Source: Bacteroidota bacterium (GTDB lineage: Bacteria; Bacteroidota; Bacteroidia; UKL13-3). From it: a DNA stretch of 64,000 nt. Location of the stretch: positions 42,229 through 106,228 of the forward strand of contig JAAFJM010000005.1 in assembly GCA_013298895.1 (NCBI GenBank). The letters run 5' to 3'. Within the stretch, counting starts at the first letter, position 1. Each line of letters opens with the position of its first letter. Made by a program: the position numbers and the translations under genes. The notes beneath the pieces are model-generated. The model saw only the letters and a list, made by a program, of their open reading frames with translations, did no database searches and had not been told where the DNA came from. Shown one piece after another: positions 40,394 through 51,403 of the stretch.

Positions 40394-41086
40394 TTACCAA
40401 AAGAAGGACAAACCAAAGTCTGTTGAATAATAGCTTGCACCATTAGCTGCTGCTCCGGGTGGTCTTGCTGCTAGTTTATAAGTTTCAATATTTGGAGTTA
40501 CTGTTAAGCCAAACCAATCATGCAGTTTGTAGGTAATATTAAATTGTAACTTGGTATTTTTACCATAATTATCCGAATCGTATTTGTTATAAAAAACACT
40601 ATAATGATACCTAGTATTAATAATTAAACGTTCACCAATTTTAGTAAGTATCGAAAAGCTAGCCCCTGGAAATGTTATACCTGCACTTCTGAATCCAGCA
40701 GTTTCAAACCCGCCAATGATTCCCAAACCTATGCGGGTTTCAGACCCCAAAATTTTAATTGGCTTACCAGGGTTCAGATAATAACCCCAGTCAACATCTG
40801 CTAAGGCACCATGCACATTGTCAGGAGAATTAACTGTTCCTCCCCAATCAATGTTGGGTACCAATGAAAAGTCGCCAGTTACCCAACCATAGTCACTTGT
40901 TACCCAATCAAATTTCAGCATGGGATTTTTAGTTGTAAATGTATAGTTGCTATTGGTTGCCAAATCAGCATTACCACTTGAGAATTGGTAAAGTGATATA
41001 TGAAACTGATCGTCTTGGGCAAATGAAATAATGCTGCATAAGCAAAACGAGGTTATAATGATTAAGTTTAATACAAATTTGAACAT
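40394..41086 (-). CDS. Predicted outer-membrane beta-barrel protein
   Basis: A 230-residue protein with a signal peptide (cleavage near SFAQ) and about ten amphipathic strands, ending in aromatic residues (FGLSFFW) as barrel proteins do. No family name recognised. It starts 4 bases after the large exported protein gene, so both are controlled by the operator at 42838. It may be the surface anchor or channel for that protein. Confidence 0.65.
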   Translation of the reverse strand: MFKFVLNLIIITSFCLCSIISFAQDDQFHISLYQFSSGNADLATNSNYTFTTKNPMLKFDWVTSDYGWVTGDFSLVPNIDWGGTVNSPDNVHGALADVDWGYYLNPGKPIKILGSETRIGLGIIGGFETAGFRSAGITFPGASFSILTKIGERLIINTRYHYSVFYNKYDSDNYGKNTKLQFNITYKLHDWFGLTVTPNIETYKLAARPPGAAANGASYYSTDFGLSFFW

Positions 41087-41090
41087 AAGC

Positions 41091-42785
41091 TTACTTTTTA
41101 AGGGTTATAAAAACAATTTCTCCTTCTTTGGCTTTTTTGGTTAGTTTTTTTCCTTGGAAAACCACCTCATCATTGTTTTCAAAAAGTATTGGGCTGCCAA
41201 ACCAAAGTACCCATTCATCATTGTTAAATGATTTAAAGGCACTTAGCTCTTTGTTGGTTAAACTGTACTTGCAAATGCCCAATCCGCTCATTAAGCCTAA
41301 TTTGTGTTTGGCTTCCATGGCGCCATTTTCATTCAACATTTTATTATATTTAGCATAATCAAAAAACGACCAATAAAACGTGTTTCCATCTTTTGTAAAG
41401 TGTAAATTAAAACGCGAATATTCTTCTTCTGGTTTTGCCAGATAAGTATTTAAGTTCCCATCGGAATCAAAAACCATGGTTACTATCGCAGAACGGTCTT
41501 GTTCATATTTGCTGTTTATAGATTTTACAGTTTGTCCGGATAAAAATAGGTTGCCATTTTTTGCATGAATTTGTACATCGTTAAAATACAACCAAGGCTC
41601 AACCTTACCTTTAACCCCATTTACCATTTGAATTTTTCCGGTTAAATCAGCCTTGCTAAATGCTTTTACATAATCCACTTTGCCATGGCTGATTTTGGCT
41701 ATTTGTAAGATAGGAAATTCTTTTATAGTAAAACCATCAAACGTGGTAAAAGTATTTTTTTGGTTAGAACTGTTGCCCACAATGTATATGACCCCATCTA
41801 TTTCTTTAACATGTTCTATAGCCCAGTTTCCATAAATGCCTTCCATGTTTATCCTTTCTTTTACCTCAAATGATTCCCCATCAACCCTAATGTACTCGAA
41901 GTTTAAAGGATTGGTAGTTGGCTGTTTTGATTTTTTGTAGAAAAATGGTTTCATGATGATGATGTAATCAAACACTCCTGGCGCCTTCTCTATTTCCTTT
42001 ACAGTTGGCAAACATTGGTAATCGTAACTGAATGTAACCTCTTTTATAACAGTGGCATTTTCATTATATTTCCTAAACACATAATGAGCTTTGTTTGGGT
42101 CAGGATTTACGCCCACTGTTGAAAATAAAATGTTTCCTCCGCCTGGCACGGGGTTGTTATACAGTGGATACCATTTTTGGCCTTTAGCTTCTTTCAAGTC
42201 ATCAGATGATAAATTTTCAATTACGGGAATTTCGCCACATTGGGTACCTTGCGTTTTGGTATCATTGGCTAGAGGTTGGCATCCGATAGCTGAAATGTTT
42301 ACTTTGAAACCGGATATTCCGGCAGTTCCACTAACAACATTACTAAACATAAACGAATTATTAACAGGACGGGGTAAATTAGCACCACCCTGCCATATAG
42401 ATTTACCAATATTTGCAGCTATCGGCATGTATGTTTTACCGAACACAAATTCATCGTTTAGCAACGCTTCTTCTGATGATTCATATTTTTTAGTATCAGT
42501 TCTAATAAATTCGTAAGTGTCAGAAAAAACCAATTTATCAATATTCCATTTTAAACCTTTATATGTTCTTGTTCCAGTCCATACATTTTTGTTCATATCG
42601 CAAATAGATTGTGCAAATTTAACATAGATTTCATGGGTAATACTATCACGTCCAGCATCAATAATAGCCCAATTTTTGTGTTTGTTTTGCGAAGCCAACT
42701 CAAAATTTTTAGTGGTTACTTCAACCTGTGCCTGCAAAAATAAACTTGCTAGAATTGCGGCATTTGTTAGGATTAATTTTTTCAT
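41091..42785 (-). CDS. Large exported protein of unknown family, predicted regulon member
   Basis: A 564-residue protein with signal peptide MKKLILTNAAILASLFLQAQ. The body is beta-rich with repeated blade-like stretches (GNWAIEHVKEIDGVIYIVGN, AIVTMVFDSDGNLNTYL), suggesting a beta-propeller. No T9SS sorting tail is present, so it is probably periplasmic or attached to the barrel encoded next. The open frame extends to 42887, but that part overlaps the promoter and operator; ATG 42785 (or 42791) starts the signal peptide. Confidence 0.65.
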   Translation of the reverse strand: MKKLILTNAAILASLFLQAQVEVTTKNFELASQNKHKNWAIIDAGRDSITHEIYVKFAQSICDMNKNVWTGTRTYKGLKWNIDKLVFSDTYEFIRTDTKKYESSEEALLNDEFVFGKTYMPIAANIGKSIWQGGANLPRPVNNSFMFSNVVSGTAGISGFKVNISAIGCQPLANDTKTQGTQCGEIPVIENLSSDDLKEAKGQKWYPLYNNPVPGGGNILFSTVGVNPDPNKAHYVFRKYNENATVIKEVTFSYDYQCLPTVKEIEKAPGVFDYIIIMKPFFYKKSKQPTTNPLNFEYIRVDGESFEVKERINMEGIYGNWAIEHVKEIDGVIYIVGNSSNQKNTFTTFDGFTIKEFPILQIAKISHGKVDYVKAFSKADLTGKIQMVNGVKGKVEPWLYFNDVQIHAKNGNLFLSGQTVKSINSKYEQDRSAIVTMVFDSDGNLNTYLAKPEEEYSRFNLHFTKDGNTFYWSFFDYAKYNKMLNENGAMEAKHKLGLMSGLGICKYSLTNKELSAFKSFNNDEWVLWFGSPILFENNDEVVFQGKKLTKKAKEGEIVFITLKK

Positions 42786-42808
42786 TGTCATAATTAGTTT
42801 GTGATATT

Positions 42809-42816
42809 CAAAATTG
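42809..42816 (-). promoter_or_regulatory. Weak -7 box, site 1
   Basis: CAATTTTG on the minus strand, one mismatch from TAnnTTTG, 23 bases before the ATG of the large exported protein and exactly 21 bases from the operator edge. TCACAAA follows downstream. Confidence 0.6.
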
Positions 42817-42837: not shown

Positions 42838-42857
42838 AATACAGCATCTGCTGTATT
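42838..42857. promoter_or_regulatory. Operator palindrome, site 1
   Basis: AATACAGCATCTGCTGTATT: perfect 9-base arms around a 2-base centre. Same arms as sites 2 and 3. The core is a 7-2-7 arrangement (TACAGCA-N2-TGCTGTA). Confidence 0.8.
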
Positions 42858-42878
42858 TTGGCATTTCATAGGTATAAA

Positions 42879-42901
42879 AAAAGCCACTGTGAGTGGCTTT
42901 T
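42879..42901 (-). terminator. Terminator of the T9SS protein/lipoprotein unit
   Basis: Stem AAAAGCCACT (42879-42888) / AGTGGCTTTT (42892-42901) with a 3-base loop, just past the stop of the lipoprotein gene. Confidence 0.85.
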
Positions 42902-42919
42902 GAGTGAAATATTAGTTGT

Positions 42920-43360
42920 TTATTTACTCAAATATCCTTTCGAGTAGTCGTTACTTCCTTTTCTTGTTTCTGCATCTTTATTGCTAATTACAAAAGATGT
43001 TTTGGTAAACAAAACAACCTCATTCGTGTCGGGCTGTTTTCCTGCTTCTAATAAAATTAACAAATCTTTACCATTAAGTTTTGCAATAGTATACGTTCCA
43101 TTGTCTGATCCTAAAGGAAGAACTGTGGAGTAGGTATTGTCATTCCCTAAAGTAAATGTTCCTGTACCATCAGGCACATTGTAGGATAGTTTAAGCGAAT
43201 CTCCAGGAATGCTGTATTCTTCAAATTTGTTGATTTTCCATGTACCTACAACTGCTTCTTTCGTAAAAGCAACTGGTGCATTCGTGTCTTCTTTTTTGTC
43301 TTCTTCTTTTTTGCAGGCAACTATTGCCAATAAAAGCATCGGGATCATTAGTTTTTTCAT
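42920..43360 (-). CDS. Lipocalin-like lipoprotein
   Basis: A 146-residue lipoprotein (MKKLMIPMLLLAIVAC, Cys16, then an acidic/lysine linker). The domain begins AVVGTWKINKFEEY and continues in short strands with TFTLGNDNTYST, the usual pattern of lipocalin-like Bacteroidota lipoproteins. Ligand unknown. It lies 27 bases after the T9SS protein gene and shares its promoter. Confidence 0.75.
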   Translation of the reverse strand: MKKLMIPMLLLAIVACKKEEDKKEDTNAPVAFTKEAVVGTWKINKFEEYSIPGDSLKLSYNVPDGTGTFTLGNDNTYSTVLPLGSDNGTYTIAKLNGKDLLILLEAGKQPDTNEVVLFTKTSFVISNKDAETRKGSNDYSKGYLSK

Positions 43361-43387
43361 TTGTTTATTTATTTGGTATAATTGAAA

Positions 43388-44425
43388 TTAGTCTATTATA
43401 ATTTTTTTGGTGGTTGAGCCTAAATTAGTAACAACCTCAATAAAATAAATACCACTGCTCAAATTGGATGTATTAATATGGGCGTTGTTATCTAATATAC
43501 TATTGAATGTATTTATTCTGCTTCCCGAGATATCAAATACTGTTGTGCTAGAAATGCTTGTGTTGTCTAATGAGGTAATATTAACCATATCCTTTGCCGG
43601 ATTAGGATAAACAGAGAAATTATTGTTTAGAACATTTTCGCTTATGGCATTAGGGGTATTATTGCCATACATAATAATTCCAGTTTGCTTGAGAGGCATA
43701 CCTGATCCATTACGCGCATAAATAGCGAAAGTTTTGGTTTTAGCATTTTCTTTTTGGGTTACAATAATTTTATTCGACAATTCAAATAGGTTAGTGCTTG
43801 CTTGCAAAGTTGTCTGCAATGAAGAGTCTAAGCCATTCGAATAATAATATTCAGTGTAGCCGATTCTAGTAAAATTGGAACCGTCTAATTTAAAACCTAC
43901 AACAGAATCTAGGCGGCTATTATTTAGGTAGTATATGGACTTACTAATTAATTGCCAAGAATTGCTTAACCAGCGGTAAGAAAAATGGGTAAATTGATTA
44001 GGTGATGAACCGCGTTCAATAATTATTTTTGTGCTATTGGTAAATGGGCCTCCATTATTACTTCGTTCTTGGATGATACTTGTATCTCCAGTAGCATCTG
44101 CTGAAAAGGTAGTTCTTTCAACATCCTCCCAAGGATTATTGCCATCCTTTTCTGAGGAAATACAAACAGTAATATTCCCTGTTACTGTACTTGTAATCCT
44201 AAAGGTTGGCACCCCTAGCATTGTGCTTGTTGAGAGGCCTGTTAATGGTACTCCTTTTGAATCATAAGTTAAATCACCCATTTGAACACCAGATAGTGAA
44301 ATGGAGTTGTGAGAAATAGGATCTACACGGAGATTAAGCCCCCAGATTTCGGATGCTGTAAATTGTGCAGAAGCACTTGCTGCAAATAATATCAAGCTTG
44401 TAATTGTTAGTACTTGTTTTTTCAT
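43388..44425 (-). CDS. Secreted protein with T9SS type A sorting domain
   Basis: A 345-residue protein with signal peptide (MKKQVLTITSLILFAASASA) and a C-terminal T9SS sorting domain of about 75 residues: FSVYPNPAKDMVNI to GIYFIEVVTNLG and KKIIID. It is therefore predicted to be exported through the type IX system and to end up on the surface or free. The middle part is beta-rich and not recognised. ATG 44425 is preferred to the longer frame from 44455, which overlaps the weak -7 box. Confidence 0.8.
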   Translation of the reverse strand: MKKQVLTITSLILFAASASAQFTASEIWGLNLRVDPISHNSISLSGVQMGDLTYDSKGVPLTGLSTSTMLGVPTFRITSTVTGNITVCISSEKDGNNPWEDVERTTFSADATGDTSIIQERSNNGGPFTNSTKIIIERGSSPNQFTHFSYRWLSNSWQLISKSIYYLNNSRLDSVVGFKLDGSNFTRIGYTEYYYSNGLDSSLQTTLQASTNLFELSNKIIVTQKENAKTKTFAIYARNGSGMPLKQTGIIMYGNNTPNAISENVLNNNFSVYPNPAKDMVNITSLDNTSISSTTVFDISGSRINTFNSILDNNAHINTSNLSSGIYFIEVVTNLGSTTKKIIID

Positions 44426-44452
44426 ATTGTTGTTTGTTTTATTTGTGAGCAA

Positions 44453-44460
44453 CAAAAATC
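44453..44460 (-). promoter_or_regulatory. Weak -7 box, site 2
   Basis: GATTTTTG on the minus strand, one mismatch from TAnnTTTG, exactly 21 bases from the operator edge. It is followed by TTGCTCACAAATAAAACA, nearly the same as at site 3. Confidence 0.6.
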
Positions 44461-44481
44461 TAAAAGAATGGTAGCTTTCGA

Positions 44482-44501
44482 AATACAGCAGATGCTGTAT
44501 T
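44482..44501. promoter_or_regulatory. Operator palindrome, site 2
   Basis: AATACAGCAGATGCTGTATT, perfect 9-base arms; one more A-T pair extends it to 22 bases (44481-44502). Confidence 0.82.
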
Positions 44502-44521
44502 TTTAGCTTTCATTTAAATAA

Positions 44522-44550
44522 AAAAACCGTTGCTTTAGGCAACGGTTTTT
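44522..44550 (-). terminator. Terminator of the Asp-box protein gene
   Basis: Perfect 12-base stem AAAAACCGTTGC (44522-44533) / GCAACGGTTTTT (44539-44550), loop of 5, reading as a T-tailed terminator on the minus strand. Confidence 0.88.
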
Positions 44551-44609
44551 ACATAAATCTAAAGCTTATTTATTCCTGAAAATAAATTAAGGTAATAATA
44601 AAGATTAGC

Positions 44610-45851
44610 TTATTGTTTGATAAATTTTTGTGTAGAATTACCTTTTTCTGTTTCTACATGAATAAAATAAGTTCCAGTTTCAAGGGTTTCAATATCTATG
44701 GTTACATCATCCTTATTTATTGTTTTATATATCAATAATTGGCCATAGATATTAGTGATTTTAAAGGCGGTGATTTTATCATTATCTAAAGAAAAATGAA
44801 GTGATGTTGTAGCTGGATTTGGATAAATAATTAATGGTAAAGTTTTATTAGTTTTTTCACGCAAACCAGTTGATGAAGCGCCATAACGATAAATTTTATT
44901 GCCACTAGTTGTAAACAAATTTTTTGAACTACTGCATAAATTTCCGTTATTAAGAATAGTTGGGTCTGAAAGCTTAGTAAAAACTGTTCCACCATCTTCA
45001 CTAACATGTGTTGAGCCATCATTTGCAATGGCAATTAATTTAGAACCCATAAACATGCATCTCGATGAAGTTGGACGATTTCCTTCCACTTTTGTCCAAG
45101 AAACTCCATTATCGGTTGATTTGTAAAGCAAATCAAAAATAGGAACACTATAAGCTAAATCGCCATTATCGGCTTTACTTAAAGTATTAAGTGCACTTCC
45201 GGGCAAAAATGTACTAGGCGGGTAGGTGCCTCTTTGCCAACTCATACCTAAATCAGTGCTATAAACGGTTTCACCTGAGCTTGTAGAAACATAATTCCCA
45301 TTTTTAGCAACCAAAGTGCTAAAGGGTATAGGTATTGCGGCAGCTGTAATATTGCCTTTTGGCAACCATGTTACTCCTTGATCCGTTGATTGTTCTTGAG
45401 TTGAACTCGCCCCTATACCTTTAATCATTAACCAGTTGTTACTACTTACTTTAAAAATAGGATTGGCAATGCCAAATGTAAAAAGGTTAGCCTTTTGAAC
45501 ATTAAAAGTTGCTCCAAAGTCAGTAGATTTTTTTAAGGAAAGACTGTCTTGACAATACAACACATCATCAGCCCAAAATAAATTATCAGGTGAATTTTTT
45601 TGGGCTGCTATTTCTTTCCATGTTGCACCGTAATTGCTGGATATAGCAAAAAAATTCGTAAAGGAATAAGGAGTAATAACTAATTTAGTCCCCCAAGCTG
45701 CAATATTTTTCCCATTATCTGAAACACTTAGCTTTGAAAATGAGTAGGTGGCTTGTTGGTTTTCAACTTGAAAGTTTAAGTTAGTCCATTGTGCATGAAC
45801 ACTGCTATAAGTGAATAATAACAAGAAGATGAATGTAGTTGTTTTTGTCAT
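44610..45851 (-). CDS. Secreted Asp-box (BNR) beta-propeller with T9SS sorting domain
   Basis: A 413-residue protein with a signal peptide (cleavage near VHAQ). Six Asp-box motifs of the SxDxGxTW kind are visible: SSNYGATWK, STDFGATFN, STDQGVTWL, STDLGMSWQ, STDNGVSWT and SEDGGTVFT. This marks a sialidase/Vps10-like propeller. The T9SS type A tail runs from LIIYPNPATTSLHFSL to GTYFIHV and KFIKQ. Sialidase arginine-triad residues are not evident, so it may bind rather than cut glycans. Divergent from the sensor kinase gene with an 87-base gap holding operator site 3. ATG 45851 chosen by signal peptide. Confidence 0.85.
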   Translation of the reverse strand: MTKTTTFIFLLLFTYSSVHAQWTNLNFQVENQQATYSFSKLSVSDNGKNIAAWGTKLVITPYSFTNFFAISSNYGATWKEIAAQKNSPDNLFWADDVLYCQDSLSLKKSTDFGATFNVQKANLFTFGIANPIFKVSSNNWLMIKGIGASSTQEQSTDQGVTWLPKGNITAAAIPIPFSTLVAKNGNYVSTSSGETVYSTDLGMSWQRGTYPPSTFLPGSALNTLSKADNGDLAYSVPIFDLLYKSTDNGVSWTKVEGNRPTSSRCMFMGSKLIAIANDGSTHVSEDGGTVFTKLSDPTILNNGNLCSSSKNLFTTSGNKIYRYGASSTGLREKTNKTLPLIIYPNPATTSLHFSLDNDKITAFKITNIYGQLLIYKTINKDDVTIDIETLETGTYFIHVETEKGNSTQKFIKQ

Positions 45852-45877
45852 GATATTTATGTTTAATTTGTGAACAA

Positions 45878-45885
45878 CAAACATC
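45878..45885 (-). promoter_or_regulatory. Weak -7 box, site 3
   Basis: GATGTTTG on the minus strand, one mismatch from TAnnTTTG, exactly 21 bases from the operator edge. The leader continues TTGTTCACAAATTAAACA. Confidence 0.6.
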
Positions 45886-45906
45886 TCTTCATTTTTTAGC
45901 TTACAA

Positions 45907-45926
45907 AATACAGCAAATGCTGTATT
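45907..45926. promoter_or_regulatory. Operator palindrome, site 3
   Basis: AATACAGCAAATGCTGTATT, the most symmetric copy; flanking A-T pairs extend it to 24 bases (45905-45928). It also lies 12 bases before the sensor kinase ATG, where a bound protein could block or tune that gene. Confidence 0.82.
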
Positions 45927-45938
45927 TTTACCCTAGCC

Positions 45939-48900
45939 ATGAAAAAAGTACTTGTAATACTATTCCTACTTTTTACCCATTTTGCACAAGCACAATTGCA
46001 ACGCAACTATACCTCTTATACAGTTGATAATGGTCTGGCTCAAAACACAGTTTGGGATGCGTTTCAGGATTACAAAGGATTTATGTGGTTTGGCACTGCC
46101 GATGGTATTGACAGATTTGATGGGTACAAAATGCATCATTATAAATGGGATAGTAAAGACAGTTCGACATTACGTGGCAACAGCTTCATTAAGTTTTATG
46201 AGGATAGCAAAAACAATTTATGGGTAAGCCATAATATGGGAGTGAGTGTTTATATCCGTGAAATGGATTGTTTTAAAAATGTATTTTTTGAAGCCACGAT
46301 TAAAAATGGCAATGGAGAGAGCTACGCTACTATTTTGGGAGAGGATCAAAAAGGAAGAATGTGGAGTGTTTCAGGTAACCAAGAAATACTTGCGATAAAT
46401 ATGAGGACATTTCAAGAAGAGAAACGACTAAATGTTACAACAAGCAGATATCAAGTATCTTCAATCAGAACCAGTATTACCATAAACAACAATATATATT
46501 GCTACCTTAACGATAGTGGCACTACTTGGTTTAAGTTAAATACGGAAACCGACAAAATTGATATTATCAACGGTCCAAAATCTTTTACAGGCTTTTTTTT
46601 TAAGTATAACGATAGCACAATTTGCTCCCTCAACAAAAGCGCTCTCTACCTCTACCATGTAAATGAAAATCGCTTTGAAACCAAGCTTATAAAACCAAAC
46701 GCCATTACCGAAAAGCTAGAAAGACTTTCTTCTACTTCGTTAGCCTTTTGGCAAGGCAAAATTTGGTTGGGAAACAATACTGGTTTATACGTTTTCAATC
46801 CTAAAACAAACGTTTTTGAAGAGCGCATTACATCATTCAATAAAGCAGAAAAAGTGGGATTTTATTACGTGCAGTTTTTGCGGGTTGATAAGTCTGGCAA
46901 TTTATGGGTATGTACCAATGGCGATGGAGCAAAATGCTTATCCCCATACCGAAATAAGTTTAAACATTATAAAAGTTCTGTTTCAGAAACAAAATTAGTA
47001 AAGAGCATTACAAGCGATGCCGAGCATAATATTTATACAGGCATGTATGCAGAAGGAATTGTAACCTACAAAACCAATAACAAAAGCGAACAATTTAAAT
47101 TTGGCAAACAAAAGGATGAACATGCACACGTATTGGCTCAAGCCATTTGGAACAAGCGTTACTTCGTAATACACGACCGCTATTTGAAGGAGCTTAACCC
47201 CTTAACCAAAAAGGAGCTCAATCGCACAGATGTTTTTCACTATAAAAACTTTGGGTATTGCGCTTACCCTTTTTTTCATCAATACAAAAATAAACTTTAT
47301 TTGAGTTGCGATTTGGCTTTTTATGAAATACAACCATCAGGAAAAGGCAAGTTGCTTTTCAAGTTTAATACCTTTGATACGATAATAACCTGCTTCAGCA
47401 TTATAAACGATACTACTTGGTGGGTAGGCACAACCAAGTTTGTTTGTACATTCAATCCTATAAGTAAAAAGTGGAAGAAACTTCCACTTAATGTTTATAC
47501 AAAAACCCTTTGTTTATCAAATGATAAAAAATACGTTTGGGTTGGCGCAGCCGTAGGTTTGTATTTAACGGATCTTAGCGGAAAAGTGTTGAAAAAATTT
47601 GAAATAACTGAAGGATTACCTGATGATTTTATTTATGGCATATTAGAAGACAACAAAGGGCGATTTTGGATGAGCCATAACAAGGGTATTTCTGTTTACA
47701 ATCCAATTAATAAGACCTTTAAAAATTATGGTGTAAAGGATGGCTTGCAAAGCAACGAGTTTAATACAGGTGCTTATTACAAAGATGAAAAAGGCTTGTT
47801 GTATTTTGGTGGTGTAAATGGAATAAATGTAATTGACCCAAACCGTGTGGCTGAAAATAAAAATGCCCCTCAAGTTGCCATTAATGAAATATTGTTGGGT
47901 GATATGCCTTATAAAAGTAATACCGCTTACAATGAAATTCAATCGCTCACCCTATCGTATGTTGAAAACACCTTATCGTTTGATTTTTCTGCATTGGAGT
48001 TTAGCCAACCCGAAAATAATACCTATAAATACCGATTAAACGGTTATGATAATAACTGGATACAAAATGGTACCAAACATTTTGCACGTTATGCGAATTT
48101 GCCTCCAGGTAAGTACGTGTTTCAAGTAATGGCAGCCAATGCTGATGGATTTTGGAACAACGAACCACGAAATATCTTTATTACTATTATTCCTCCCTTT
48201 TGGCAGCGTACCTGGTTTTATTGGCTAATGGGATTGCTTGGCTTTGCCTTATTGGGTGCGGTATTTTATGTTTACAACAAACGTCAACAACGAAAATTAG
48301 AACGTGAATTAGAAGTACAACAAAAGCTGGAACAAGAACGTTTACGTATTTCGCGCGATTTGCATGATAATGTGGGCGCACAATTAAGTTATTTAATTAC
48401 CAATGTAGAGTGGATGTTGCATCACCCCGATAGGCTTACGGAACAAGATGAACAACAACGCCTGCAAGCCATGAGCGAAGCCGGGAGAAATGCAATTTTA
48501 ACCTTGCGTCAAACCATTTGGGCCATAAGCAATAAGAGTTTAAATGTGGATGATTTTGCTGACCGCTTTAAACAATTTGCCCTAAAAATGTTAGAATTTG
48601 ATAAAACAGTTCAAGTACATTTTACAGAAGATATCATGCCTAACAAGGAATTGAGTCCTGCAGTTGCCCTTAACCTTTTTCGAGTATGTCAAGAAGCATT
48701 TAACAATTGCCTTAAACATGCAAAAAGCAAAAACATCCACATCCACTTTCAATCGGATGATGCAACCCTTTTTTGCTTTAAGATAACTGATGATGGGGTT
48801 GGTTTTGATTGGGAACAAGCTAAACAAAAGGGACACTACGGCTTGGTAAACATGGAAGCAAGGGCGGGAGAAACCAATGCGGAATTATATGTAAAATCAG

Positions 48901-48941
48901 CAATAGGAAAAGGAACCACCATTACGCTTACTTTAAAATAA
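45939..48941 (+). CDS. Beta-propeller/Y_Y_Y sensor histidine kinase (NarX/HPK7 type)
   Basis: A 1000-residue membrane kinase. It has a signal peptide (to about residue 19), then about 650 residues of Reg_prop beta-propeller repeats (for example GLAQNTVWDAFQDYKGFMWF and GLPDDFIYGILEDNKGRFWM). A Y_Y_Y domain follows (about 680-760: YKYRLNGYDNNW, PPGKYVFQVMAAN), then one membrane helix (about 765-787) and a coiled linker. The HisKA_3 dimer/phosphoacceptor region RISRDLHDNVGAQLSYL and an HATPase_c domain (EAFNNCLKHA, DDGVGFD, GKGTTITL) complete it. This is the sensing half of Bacteroidota hybrid two-component systems, but the receiver and DNA-binding parts are encoded separately. It probably senses a ligand in the periplasm. 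Confidence 0.92.
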   Translation: MKKVLVILFLLFTHFAQAQLQRNYTSYTVDNGLAQNTVWDAFQDYKGFMWFGTADGIDRFDGYKMHHYKWDSKDSSTLRGNSFIKFYEDSKNNLWVSHNMGVSVYIREMDCFKNVFFEATIKNGNGESYATILGEDQKGRMWSVSGNQEILAINMRTFQEEKRLNVTTSRYQVSSIRTSITINNNIYCYLNDSGTTWFKLNTETDKIDIINGPKSFTGFFFKYNDSTICSLNKSALYLYHVNENRFETKLIKPNAITEKLERLSSTSLAFWQGKIWLGNNTGLYVFNPKTNVFEERITSFNKAEKVGFYYVQFLRVDKSGNLWVCTNGDGAKCLSPYRNKFKHYKSSVSETKLVKSITSDAEHNIYTGMYAEGIVTYKTNNKSEQFKFGKQKDEHAHVLAQAIWNKRYFVIHDRYLKELNPLTKKELNRTDVFHYKNFGYCAYPFFHQYKNKLYLSCDLAFYEIQPSGKGKLLFKFNTFDTIITCFSIINDTTWWVGTTKFVCTFNPISKKWKKLPLNVYTKTLCLSNDKKYVWVGAAVGLYLTDLSGKVLKKFEITEGLPDDFIYGILEDNKGRFWMSHNKGISVYNPINKTFKNYGVKDGLQSNEFNTGAYYKDEKGLLYFGGVNGINVIDPNRVAENKNAPQVAINEILLGDMPYKSNTAYNEIQSLTLSYVENTLSFDFSALEFSQPENNTYKYRLNGYDNNWIQNGTKHFARYANLPPGKYVFQVMAANADGFWNNEPRNIFITIIPPFWQRTWFYWLMGLLGFALLGAVFYVYNKRQQRKLERELEVQQKLEQERLRISRDLHDNVGAQLSYLITNVEWMLHHPDRLTEQDEQQRLQAMSEAGRNAILTLRQTIWAISNKSLNVDDFADRFKQFALKMLEFDKTVQVHFTEDIMPNKELSPAVALNLFRVCQEAFNNCLKHAKSKNIHIHFQSDDATLFCFKITDDGVGFDWEQAKQKGHYGLVNMEARAGETNAELYVKSAIGKGTTITLTLK

Positions 48942-48956
48942 GGCATATGCTGTATT
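48937..48956. promoter_or_regulatory. Operator palindrome, site 4 (degenerate left arm)
   Basis: AATAAGGCATATGCTGTATT: right arm perfect, left arm 7 of 9. It overlaps the last bases of the kinase gene (its TAA stop) and precedes the response regulator gene. Confidence 0.7.
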
Positions 48957-48977: not shown

Positions 48978-48985
48978 CAACTTTG
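48978..48985 (+). promoter_or_regulatory. Weak -7 box, site 4
   Basis: CAACTTTG, one mismatch from TAnnTTTG, exactly 21 bases from operator site 4 and 21 bases before ATG 49007. Confidence 0.55.
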
Positions 48986-49006
48986 ATGCAAATAAATAAC
49001 AAAATC

Positions 49007-49657
49007 ATGCGCATTGCCATTGTTGATGATAAACAGCCAAACAGGGTATCATTACAGGAGAAACTAAATTTTCTAAAAGATATTGAAGTGGTGTTTTTGG
49101 CCGCTAACGGAGAAGATTTTTTAAACAGGATAAAGGCTGAAAAACAATCATTGGATGTGGTGCTGATGGATATTGACATGCCCATAATGAATGGAATAGA
49201 AGCGGTAAACATTGCTGCCAGTTTATACCCGGAAACCAAATTTTTAATGCTCACCGTGTTTGATGATGATGATAAGATATTTGAAGCCATAAAAGCAGGC
49301 GCAATTGGCTACTTGCTAAAAGATGAAAACGTAGATAAAATTGTAGATGCCTTGTGGCAAATTGTAGAATTTGGCGGTTCGCCAATGAGTCCAAGAATTG
49401 CGCGTAAAGCCCTGCAACTATTAATGGGTGCAAAGGTAGAAAAAAAGCAAAAGGAAGAAACTGTATTATCAGCACGGGAAATGGAAATTTTAAAAGGCTT
49501 GGTAGAAGGAATGGACTATAAAGCAGTGGCTGAAAAACTATTTATTAGTCCTTACACCGTACGTACACATATTACCAAAATTTACCAAAAATTACATGTT
49601 AACAGCAAAATACAAGCAATTAATTTAGCAGTTAAAAATAGGTGGTTTGTATTTTAA
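49007..49657 (+). CDS. NarL/LuxR-family response regulator
   Basis: A 216-residue response regulator. Receiver domain: acidic pair in IAIVDDKQ, phospho-acceptor Asp55 in VLMDIDMP, Lys in YLLKDENV. The C-terminal LuxR/GerE helix-turn-helix reads LSAREMEILKGLVEGMDYKAVAEKL to SPYTVRTHITKIYQKL. ATG 49007 (MRIAIVDD) is chosen because the predicted promoter box ends at 48985 and overlaps the alternative ATG at 48986. Its cognate kinase is the gene just upstream. NarL-type domains bind 7-2-7 inverted heptamers, which is the arrangement found at the four operator sites here. Confidence 0.92.
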   Translation: MRIAIVDDKQPNRVSLQEKLNFLKDIEVVFLAANGEDFLNRIKAEKQSLDVVLMDIDMPIMNGIEAVNIAASLYPETKFLMLTVFDDDDKIFEAIKAGAIGYLLKDENVDKIVDALWQIVEFGGSPMSPRIARKALQLLMGAKVEKKQKEETVLSAREMEILKGLVEGMDYKAVAEKLFISPYTVRTHITKIYQKLHVNSKIQAINLAVKNRWFVF

Positions 49658-50551: not shown

Positions 50552-51403
50552 ATGAACGAGCAAAATATACTGAATTACCAGCGCATTGCAGCAGCTATTG
50601 AATTTATAAAAACAAATTTTAAGGCACAGCCCTCGTTAGAACAAATAGCAGCAGCAGTTCATTTAAGTCCTTTTCATTTTCAACGTTTGTTTGCTGAGTG
50701 GGCCGGAACTAGTCCTAAAAAATTCTTACAGTATATAAGTATTGAACATGCTAAATATTTATTAGGTACTAAGCAACAAACACTATTTAATACTGCCTTA
50801 GATACTGGTTTTTCAAGTACAAGTGTGCTACATAACCTGTTTGTAAAAATAGAAAGTATGACACCCGCAGAGTATAAAAATGGTGGTAAAAATTTAGTTT
50901 TAGATTATAGTTTTGAAGGCAGTCCATTTGGCTCTTTAATAATTGCATCCACTCCCAAAGGAATATGTTATATAGCTTTTATGGAGAATGAGGAATTGTC
51001 TGTTAACTTACTCCAAGCACAATTTCCTGCTGCAAGTTTTGTTTTTAATAAAGTAAATTTTCATATCCAAATTAAACATTTTTTTGAATTGAATTTAGGT
51101 ATTCATGGTCCTATAAAACTTCATTTAAAGGGAACCGATTTCCAACTTAAGGTTTGGGAAGCCTTGTTGAAAATTCCATTAGGTGAGTTAAGTACTTATG
51201 GTCAGTTAGCAAAACAAATAGATAATCCAAATGCATCTAGAGCAGTGGGAACAGCTATTGGTAGTAATCCAATAGCATTTATTATTCCGTGTCATAGAGT
51301 TATACAAGCTTCGGGTTTGGTAGGAGGATATATGTGGGGAAGTACGCGTAAAACTGCTATAATAGGATGGGAGAGTGCAATTAATGAAAACGAAAAAAAA
51401 TAA
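50552..51403 (+). CDS. AraC-type HTH fused to methylated-DNA--cysteine methyltransferase
   Basis: A 283-residue Ada-like protein. Residues 8-108 form an AraC double helix-turn-helix (LEQIAAAVHLSPFHFQRLFAEWAGTSPKKF). Residues about 118-278 form an O6-alkylguanine-DNA alkyltransferase with the acceptor motif PCHRV at 246-250 (Cys247) and the DNA-binding FQLKVWEALLKIPLGELSTYGQLA. It repairs alkylated guanine and probably regulates genes. The N-terminal zinc/methylphosphotriester domain of E. coli Ada is absent, so the usual methyl switch is missing. A YjbR-family gene follows after 26 bases. Confidence 0.92.
   Translation: MNEQNILNYQRIAAAIEFIKTNFKAQPSLEQIAAAVHLSPFHFQRLFAEWAGTSPKKFLQYISIEHAKYLLGTKQQTLFNTALDTGFSSTSVLHNLFVKIESMTPAEYKNGGKNLVLDYSFEGSPFGSLIIASTPKGICYIAFMENEELSVNLLQAQFPAASFVFNKVNFHIQIKHFFELNLGIHGPIKLHLKGTDFQLKVWEALLKIPLGELSTYGQLAKQIDNPNASRAVGTAIGSNPIAFIIPCHRVIQASGLVGGYMWGSTRKTAIIGWESAINENEKK

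Follow-up and report, generated by a model that had tools for sequence, protein, structure and literature searches.

A predicted operator of a NarL-type response regulator precedes three surface-protein units and brackets a sensor kinase gene in a Bacteroidota genome

The window analysed here, 64,000 nucleotides (nt) of contig JAAFJM010000005.1 from a Bacteroidota bacterium of the UKL13-3 lineage, contains a sensor kinase gene, a response regulator gene and three units encoding surface proteins. The palindrome AATACAGCA-N2-TGCTGTATT occurs there in four copies, with 0, 0, 0 and 2 mismatches among the 18 arm bases (Table 1). These palindromes are probably the operator to which the phosphorylated NarL-type regulator of the locus binds, activating its own gene as well as the three units for surface proteins. 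At up to three mismatches the window contains these four sites only, and 100 dinucleotide shuffles yield a mean of 0.09 and a maximum of 1. A preceding interpretation made from the letters alone (the sequence-only reading) had given the same coordinates and match qualities and had noticed no further copy in the window, and both statements hold. It described the palindrome as 7-2-7; the inverted arms and the 2-bp spacer stand, but the arms are nine bases long (9-2-9).

At all four sites, TTTG is positioned exactly 25 nt downstream of the operator, read towards the gene served, with a chance bound of 1.3e-5 when free orientation and 60 offsets are allowed. This fixed distance is absent from the sequence-only reading and adds support for the linkage of operator, regulator and targets. 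The Bacteroidota −7 element is TAnnTTTG, with its final G at −5 in Flavobacterium johnsoniae (PMC6847099). For a start 4 nt past the box, the predicted operator would span about −53 to −34, with its centre at −43.5, and would stop at the place of a −33 box. That predicted position would match simple promoters activated by NarL in Escherichia coli, where single 7-2-7 sites serve ogt at −44.5, napF at −40 to −49 and yeaR at −38 to −47 (PMC7419079, PMC4549865). The sequence-only reading had placed every copy in front of a transcription unit, which we refine for the copy at 45907. Towards the kinase, its start codon is 12 nt off and TTTG is missing at 25 nt; the promoter spacing is right only towards the divergent Asp-box gene of the type IX secretion system (T9SS).

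The predicted boxes resemble Bacteroidota sigma-A promoters in TTTG and in A at −11, both present at all four sites, and differ in T at −12, which is nearly invariant in F. johnsoniae and found at none of the four (PMC6847099). In the related loci described below, T at −12 is near base composition (14 of 42 regulator promoters, 12 of 31 divergent promoters), and A at −11 is kept by 31 of the 42 and by 25 of the 31. Loss of T at −12 with A at −11 and TTTG retained fits activator-dependent promoters. A scan for sigma-70 promoters found 37, compared with 39.3 in shuffles. The predicted regulator transcript begins near 48990, which makes the ATG at 49007 the start codon. A longer GTG frame from 42887 begins upstream of the promoter placed before 42791 and is therefore probably unused. 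The three target promoters also have CACAAA in common, from TTTG plus 5 nt onward (42791-42808, 44425-44452 and 45851-45877), with variants in the related loci L028 and L029; it is a predicted shared start-of-transcript sequence.

The complete arrangement is confined to this locus in its own genome (3,615,081 bases in 90 contigs). At up to three mismatches of 18, the genome has 16 matching places: the four locus sites, one with two mismatches and eleven with three. TTTG at 25 nt is found in 0 of the 11 inspected among the 12 others (one on contig C66 was left out). All 11 lie within stop-to-stop frames of at least 100 codons, as do the four locus sites, so frame overlap does not discriminate. 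The degenerate operator with TTTG matches four times, always at this locus. The shorter 7-2-7 core with TTTG has three further places with two core mismatches (C1:67411, C7:24939 and C28:11699) and is thus less specific on its own. The genome-wide scan had been proposed in the sequence-only reading, for which palindromes scattered before unrelated genes would count as refutation; no such scatter appears.

Operator and regulator also occur together across the family. Of 64 family genomes, 6 have the exact core with TTTG (10 at one mismatch) and 5 encode the regulator at 90% identity or more, all of these being among the six (Fisher 7.9e-7); the regulator of G054 is represented by its first 131 residues on the contig. 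The co-conservation proposed as a check is therefore seen, with five of six site-bearing genomes encoding the regulator and no other genome doing so. Across 62 family genomes, the degenerate operator with TTTG matches 30 times, spread over 13 genomes, compared with one match for the reversed pattern, so that the fixed operator-to-promoter distance renders a weak palindrome search specific. Twenty matches belong to relatives of this cluster. Among the other ten, seven (G039, G040 and G044) precede, alone or as tandem pairs, genes that appear lipoprotein-like by eye, and three (G050, G051 and G055) are without explanation. The number of sites varies: L028 has four target sites and a regulator site, L029 three and one, and L172 one and one. 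The L028 lipoprotein is identical to that of the window but has its own operator, whereas in the window the gene follows the T9SS gene; targets change while operators stay. In G040 (L271 and L288), pairs of operator and TTTG lie 282 nt apart before lipoprotein-like genes. A search at E<=1e-40 does not find the regulator in this genome, which probably has a different one that uses the same grammar.

The same grammar is found beside related regulators. We took the best 80 of 234 relatives, which extend down to about 46-47% identity and come from metagenome-assembled genomes and from named strains such as Thermaurantimonas, Sediminibacterium and Taibaiella; excluding L066, which has no upstream sequence, leaves 79 loci. 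The consensus AATAnnnCA-N2-TGnnnTATT, scored out of 12 within 130 nt upstream of the regulator gene, reaches at least 10 at spacer 2 in 49 of 79 loci (2.2 under a Markov model), compared with 3, 2, 1, 11, 7 and 4 loci at spacers 0, 1, 3, 4, 5 and 6. At least 11 is reached in 34 loci (0.15 expected). Control stretches reach 10 twice within kinases and once within regulators. TTTG follows at 25 nt in 37 and at 24 nt in 6 of the 67 loci scoring at least 9. With near-identical regulators removed, the counts are 43 of 73 for the operator and 31 of 61 for TTTG at 25 nt. Because the consensus was partly read from the first loci, 17 further loci were tested (27 hand-picked, 10 duplicates dropped; 16 loci at 42-46% identity were examined separately). 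Six of them reach at least 10 (0.36 expected; 0-4 at other spacers), and TTTG lies at 25 nt in 6 of 12. With the operator of the own regulator as query, 59 further sites are found in 31 of 53 loci, compared with 32 for swapped operators, some sites counting on both strands. In viral contigs, 11 stretches match a pattern, and none of these encodes a relative. The other near-full-length regulator match in the own genome (29% identity) has a best upstream site of 9 of 12, located 105 nt away and without TTTG.

The kinase gene stands between two operators, one serving the regulator and one reading away from the kinase start, and this bracket recurs. In loci where the kinase start is well inside the locus, an operator near that start reads away from the kinase in 31 of 64 and into it in 3 of 64; control stretches inside kinases have one in 1 of 128. 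Removing near-identical regulators gives 27 of 59, 3 of 59 and 1 of 118, and allowing TTTA and a 24-nt distance as well gives 38 of 64 loci, compared with 20 of 192 controls. In L028, L029, L047 and L172, too, a site stands 12-15 nt ahead of the kinase ATG. T9SS tails are present in 11 of 20 scanned divergent products (28 in total), a proportion that is not an unbiased rate since the first ten were chosen for tail-like ends. The remaining scanned products are ankyrin, beta-lactamase-family, barrel-like or unassigned. Of seven kinases scanned, three are of propeller type and four of TPR type. In G054 (L047/L176), the operator sites at 371 and 3442 of L047 precede two kinase-like starts separated by about 3 kb, an arrangement that resembles a tandem duplication of the kinase; behind the middle site, no target open reading frame was found.

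The regulator consists of a receiver domain (PF00072, 1.7e-21) followed by a GerE domain (PF00196, 3.4e-18), the composition of the NarL/FixJ class, and matches NarL (1a04, 5.5e-22) and VraR (1.6e-29) by sequence; the NarL-type domain named in the sequence-only reading is thereby corroborated. The kinase at 45939-48941 contains HisKA_3 (PF07730, 1.5e-10), as expected for a partner of a NarL/FixJ regulator, and its adjacency suggests that it is the partner of the regulator at 49007-49657. NarX is likewise a HisKA_3-type kinase. The sites have the NarL-type layout of inverted heptamers with a 2-bp spacer, but the heptamer TACAGCA agrees with the NarL heptamer consensus, TACYYMT, only at TAC and one M position. 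Among the five target proteins, two have a T9SS sorting tail and three have no Pfam family.

In the proposed mechanism, the predicted partner kinase would phosphorylate the regulator, which would then dimerise on the operator, some 43-44 bp ahead of each predicted transcription start, and switch on its own gene together with the three surface-protein units. Of the two bracketing operators, one serves only the regulator and the other points away from the kinase, so that on signal the surface cargo and the regulator should rise jointly with the kinase staying flat. The operator copy that lies 12 nt from the kinase start codon might hold the kinase down. If the kinase transcript starts upstream, the palindrome in the kinase leader (45907-45939) would form a stable hairpin (−11.2 kcal/mol, z −5.0), which in such a model could dampen kinase synthesis. 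The joining of operator, regulator and targets in the sequence-only reading draws support from the spacing, the genome confinement, the family co-occurrence and the recurring bracket.

The binding evidence would be identical if the regulator acted at the four sites as a repressor, with the signal releasing or imposing silencing, and NarL itself represses frdA through a 7-2-7 site close to the start (PMC7419079, PMC4549865). A repressor site need not keep a single distance, whereas the operator precedes the −7 box by a constant number of bases at all four sites and in most framed relatives, and the boxes lack T at −12; we consider repression improbable. It is extremely unlikely that the palindromes act as hairpins in RNA or as terminators, or that they are a small mobile repeat present in several copies. 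Three of the four sites fold well as RNA (z −4.1 to −5.0), but the regulator copy does not (z −0.19), and the predicted starts are all downstream of the sites. Flanks differ outside the palindrome and promoter, and the terminator scan contains none of the four sites, giving instead a separate terminator at 44522-44550. All three readings were rejected on these grounds.

Several observations weigh against activation by the regulator of the locus. G057 retains the exact site, and no regulator is found there at E<=1e-40, as might be expected if a different regulator bound the palindrome and the neighbouring response regulator were merely one of its targets. The orphan site (L174, 5128-5147) precedes a relative of the exported-protein and barrel unit in which the gene has an early in-frame stop, so that G057 looks like a regulon in decay. 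Given also that the exact site tracks this regulator in five of six genomes, and that the same grammar with lineage-specific cores stands beside each related regulator, a different binding protein is very unlikely. Among the related loci, the control stretch downstream of regulators reaches at least 10 of 12 in 8 loci. Regulators at 42-46% identity reach 10 in 2 of 16 loci, with TTTG in none; below about 46% identity the operator is mostly gone. A consensus-free palindrome search over the 79 loci finds no enriched spacer, with 8/8 arms in 0-3 of 79 at every spacer; arms of at least 8/9 occur in 8 of 79 at spacer 2 and in up to 8 at other spacers. The signal resides in the outer and inner operator bases rather than in perfect symmetry. 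In favour of the regulator, the variable core agrees between the paired operators of a locus (2.12 of 3 compared with 1.37 permuted; 24 pairs, 0 of 2000 permutations), a figure that ignores kinship. The recognition helix also speaks for it, under the same limit: of 175 variable regulator columns, the top one for operator base R5 is 187 and the top one for R4 is 183, both in that helix. At 187, Thr pairs mostly with G, Asn with C, and Lys with T or G; the residue changes only about six times on the tree, leaving too few independent pairs for a sign test. A residue-to-base rule was set in advance and tried on a search that yielded 34 regulators, 8 of them new and 5 of these 8 framed. It predicted 1 of the 5 correctly: Thr to G was right, and Lys with non-His to G was wrong four times, with T seen. 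This pairing is a lead, not a code.

Among the closest known systems is NarX-NarL of E. coli, which also combines a receiver-GerE regulator with inverted heptamers and a 2-bp spacer, and whose single site near −44 would correspond to the predicted operator position here (PMC7419079, PMC4549865). The locus differs from it in the heptamer (TACAGCA, not TACYYMT), in a Bacteroidota −7 box in place of −35/−10, in predicted autoregulation, in a kinase gene bracketed by two operators and in a cargo of secreted proteins. Bacteroides hybrid two-component systems have surface-protein cargo too, and their sensors carry Reg_prop/Y_Y_Y, like the kinase here. In these hybrids sensor and regulator are one protein (PMC11253607), unlike the two proteins with a GerE domain here. 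PorX-PorY-SigP of Porphyromonas gingivalis likewise connects a two-component system of the Bacteroidota with type IX secretion, but is reported to act on secretion components via an extracytoplasmic function (ECF) sigma factor (PMC4800418, PMC5005315), whereas here the cargo genes bear the operator themselves. Among the matches listed, which cover few subscription journals, titles and abstract openings contain no earlier description of this operator or bracket. NarL-like autoregulation is known in kind; judged from sequence, two operators bracketing the kinase gene appear to be new.

We think it rather more probable than not that the locus represents a Bacteroidota-wide module: a 9-2-9 operator 25 bp from TTTG, with outward copies bracketing the kinase gene and a core re-tuned in each lineage together with the recognition helix. 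One bracket copy would drive the regulator and the other a divergent secreted or outer-membrane protein. To our knowledge, the targets of most Bacteroidota kinase/GerE pairs have not been established. If the module exists, sequence alone could reveal the regulons of GerE-type two-component systems that are still uncharacterised, the specific search allowing regulator, operator and secreted targets to be linked.

Table 1. Predicted operators, promoter boxes and genes of the locus (window coordinates)
Feature	Coordinates	Strand	Remarks
Operator copy 1	42838..42857	-	0 mismatches; serves unit 42791-40394
Operator copy 2	44482..44501	-	0 mismatches; serves unit 44425-42920
Operator copy 3	45907..45926	-	0 mismatches; spaced for divergent gene 44610-45851; kinase ATG 12 nt away on opposite strand
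Operator copy 4	48937..48956	+	2 mismatches (16/18); serves regulator gene; overlaps kinase stop codon 48939-48941
TTTG of predicted −7 box	42809..42812	-	25 nt from operator 1; start site predicted
TTTG of predicted −7 box	44453..44456	-	25 nt from operator 2
TTTG of predicted −7 box	45878..45881	-	25 nt from operator 3
TTTG of predicted −7 box	48982..48985	+	25 nt from operator 4
Exported protein, first gene of unit 1	41091..42791	-	No Pfam family; ATG 42791
Predicted outer-membrane barrel, second gene of unit 1	40394..41086	-	By eye; no Pfam family
T9SS-type protein	43388..44425	-	Por_Secre_tail
Lipoprotein-like protein, second gene of unit 2	42920..43360	-	No Pfam family
BNR/Asp-box protein with Por_Secre_tail	44610..45851	-	Pfam
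Sensor kinase	45939..48941	+	Reg_prop, Y_Y_Y, HisKA_3, HATPase_c
Response regulator	49007..49657	+	Response_reg and GerE (NarL type); recognition helix SPYTVRTHI, residues 181-189

Downstream of the regulator gene, the frame at 50552-51403 appears by eye to encode an Ada-like protein in which an AraC-type DNA-binding domain is fused to an O6-alkylguanine methyltransferase.

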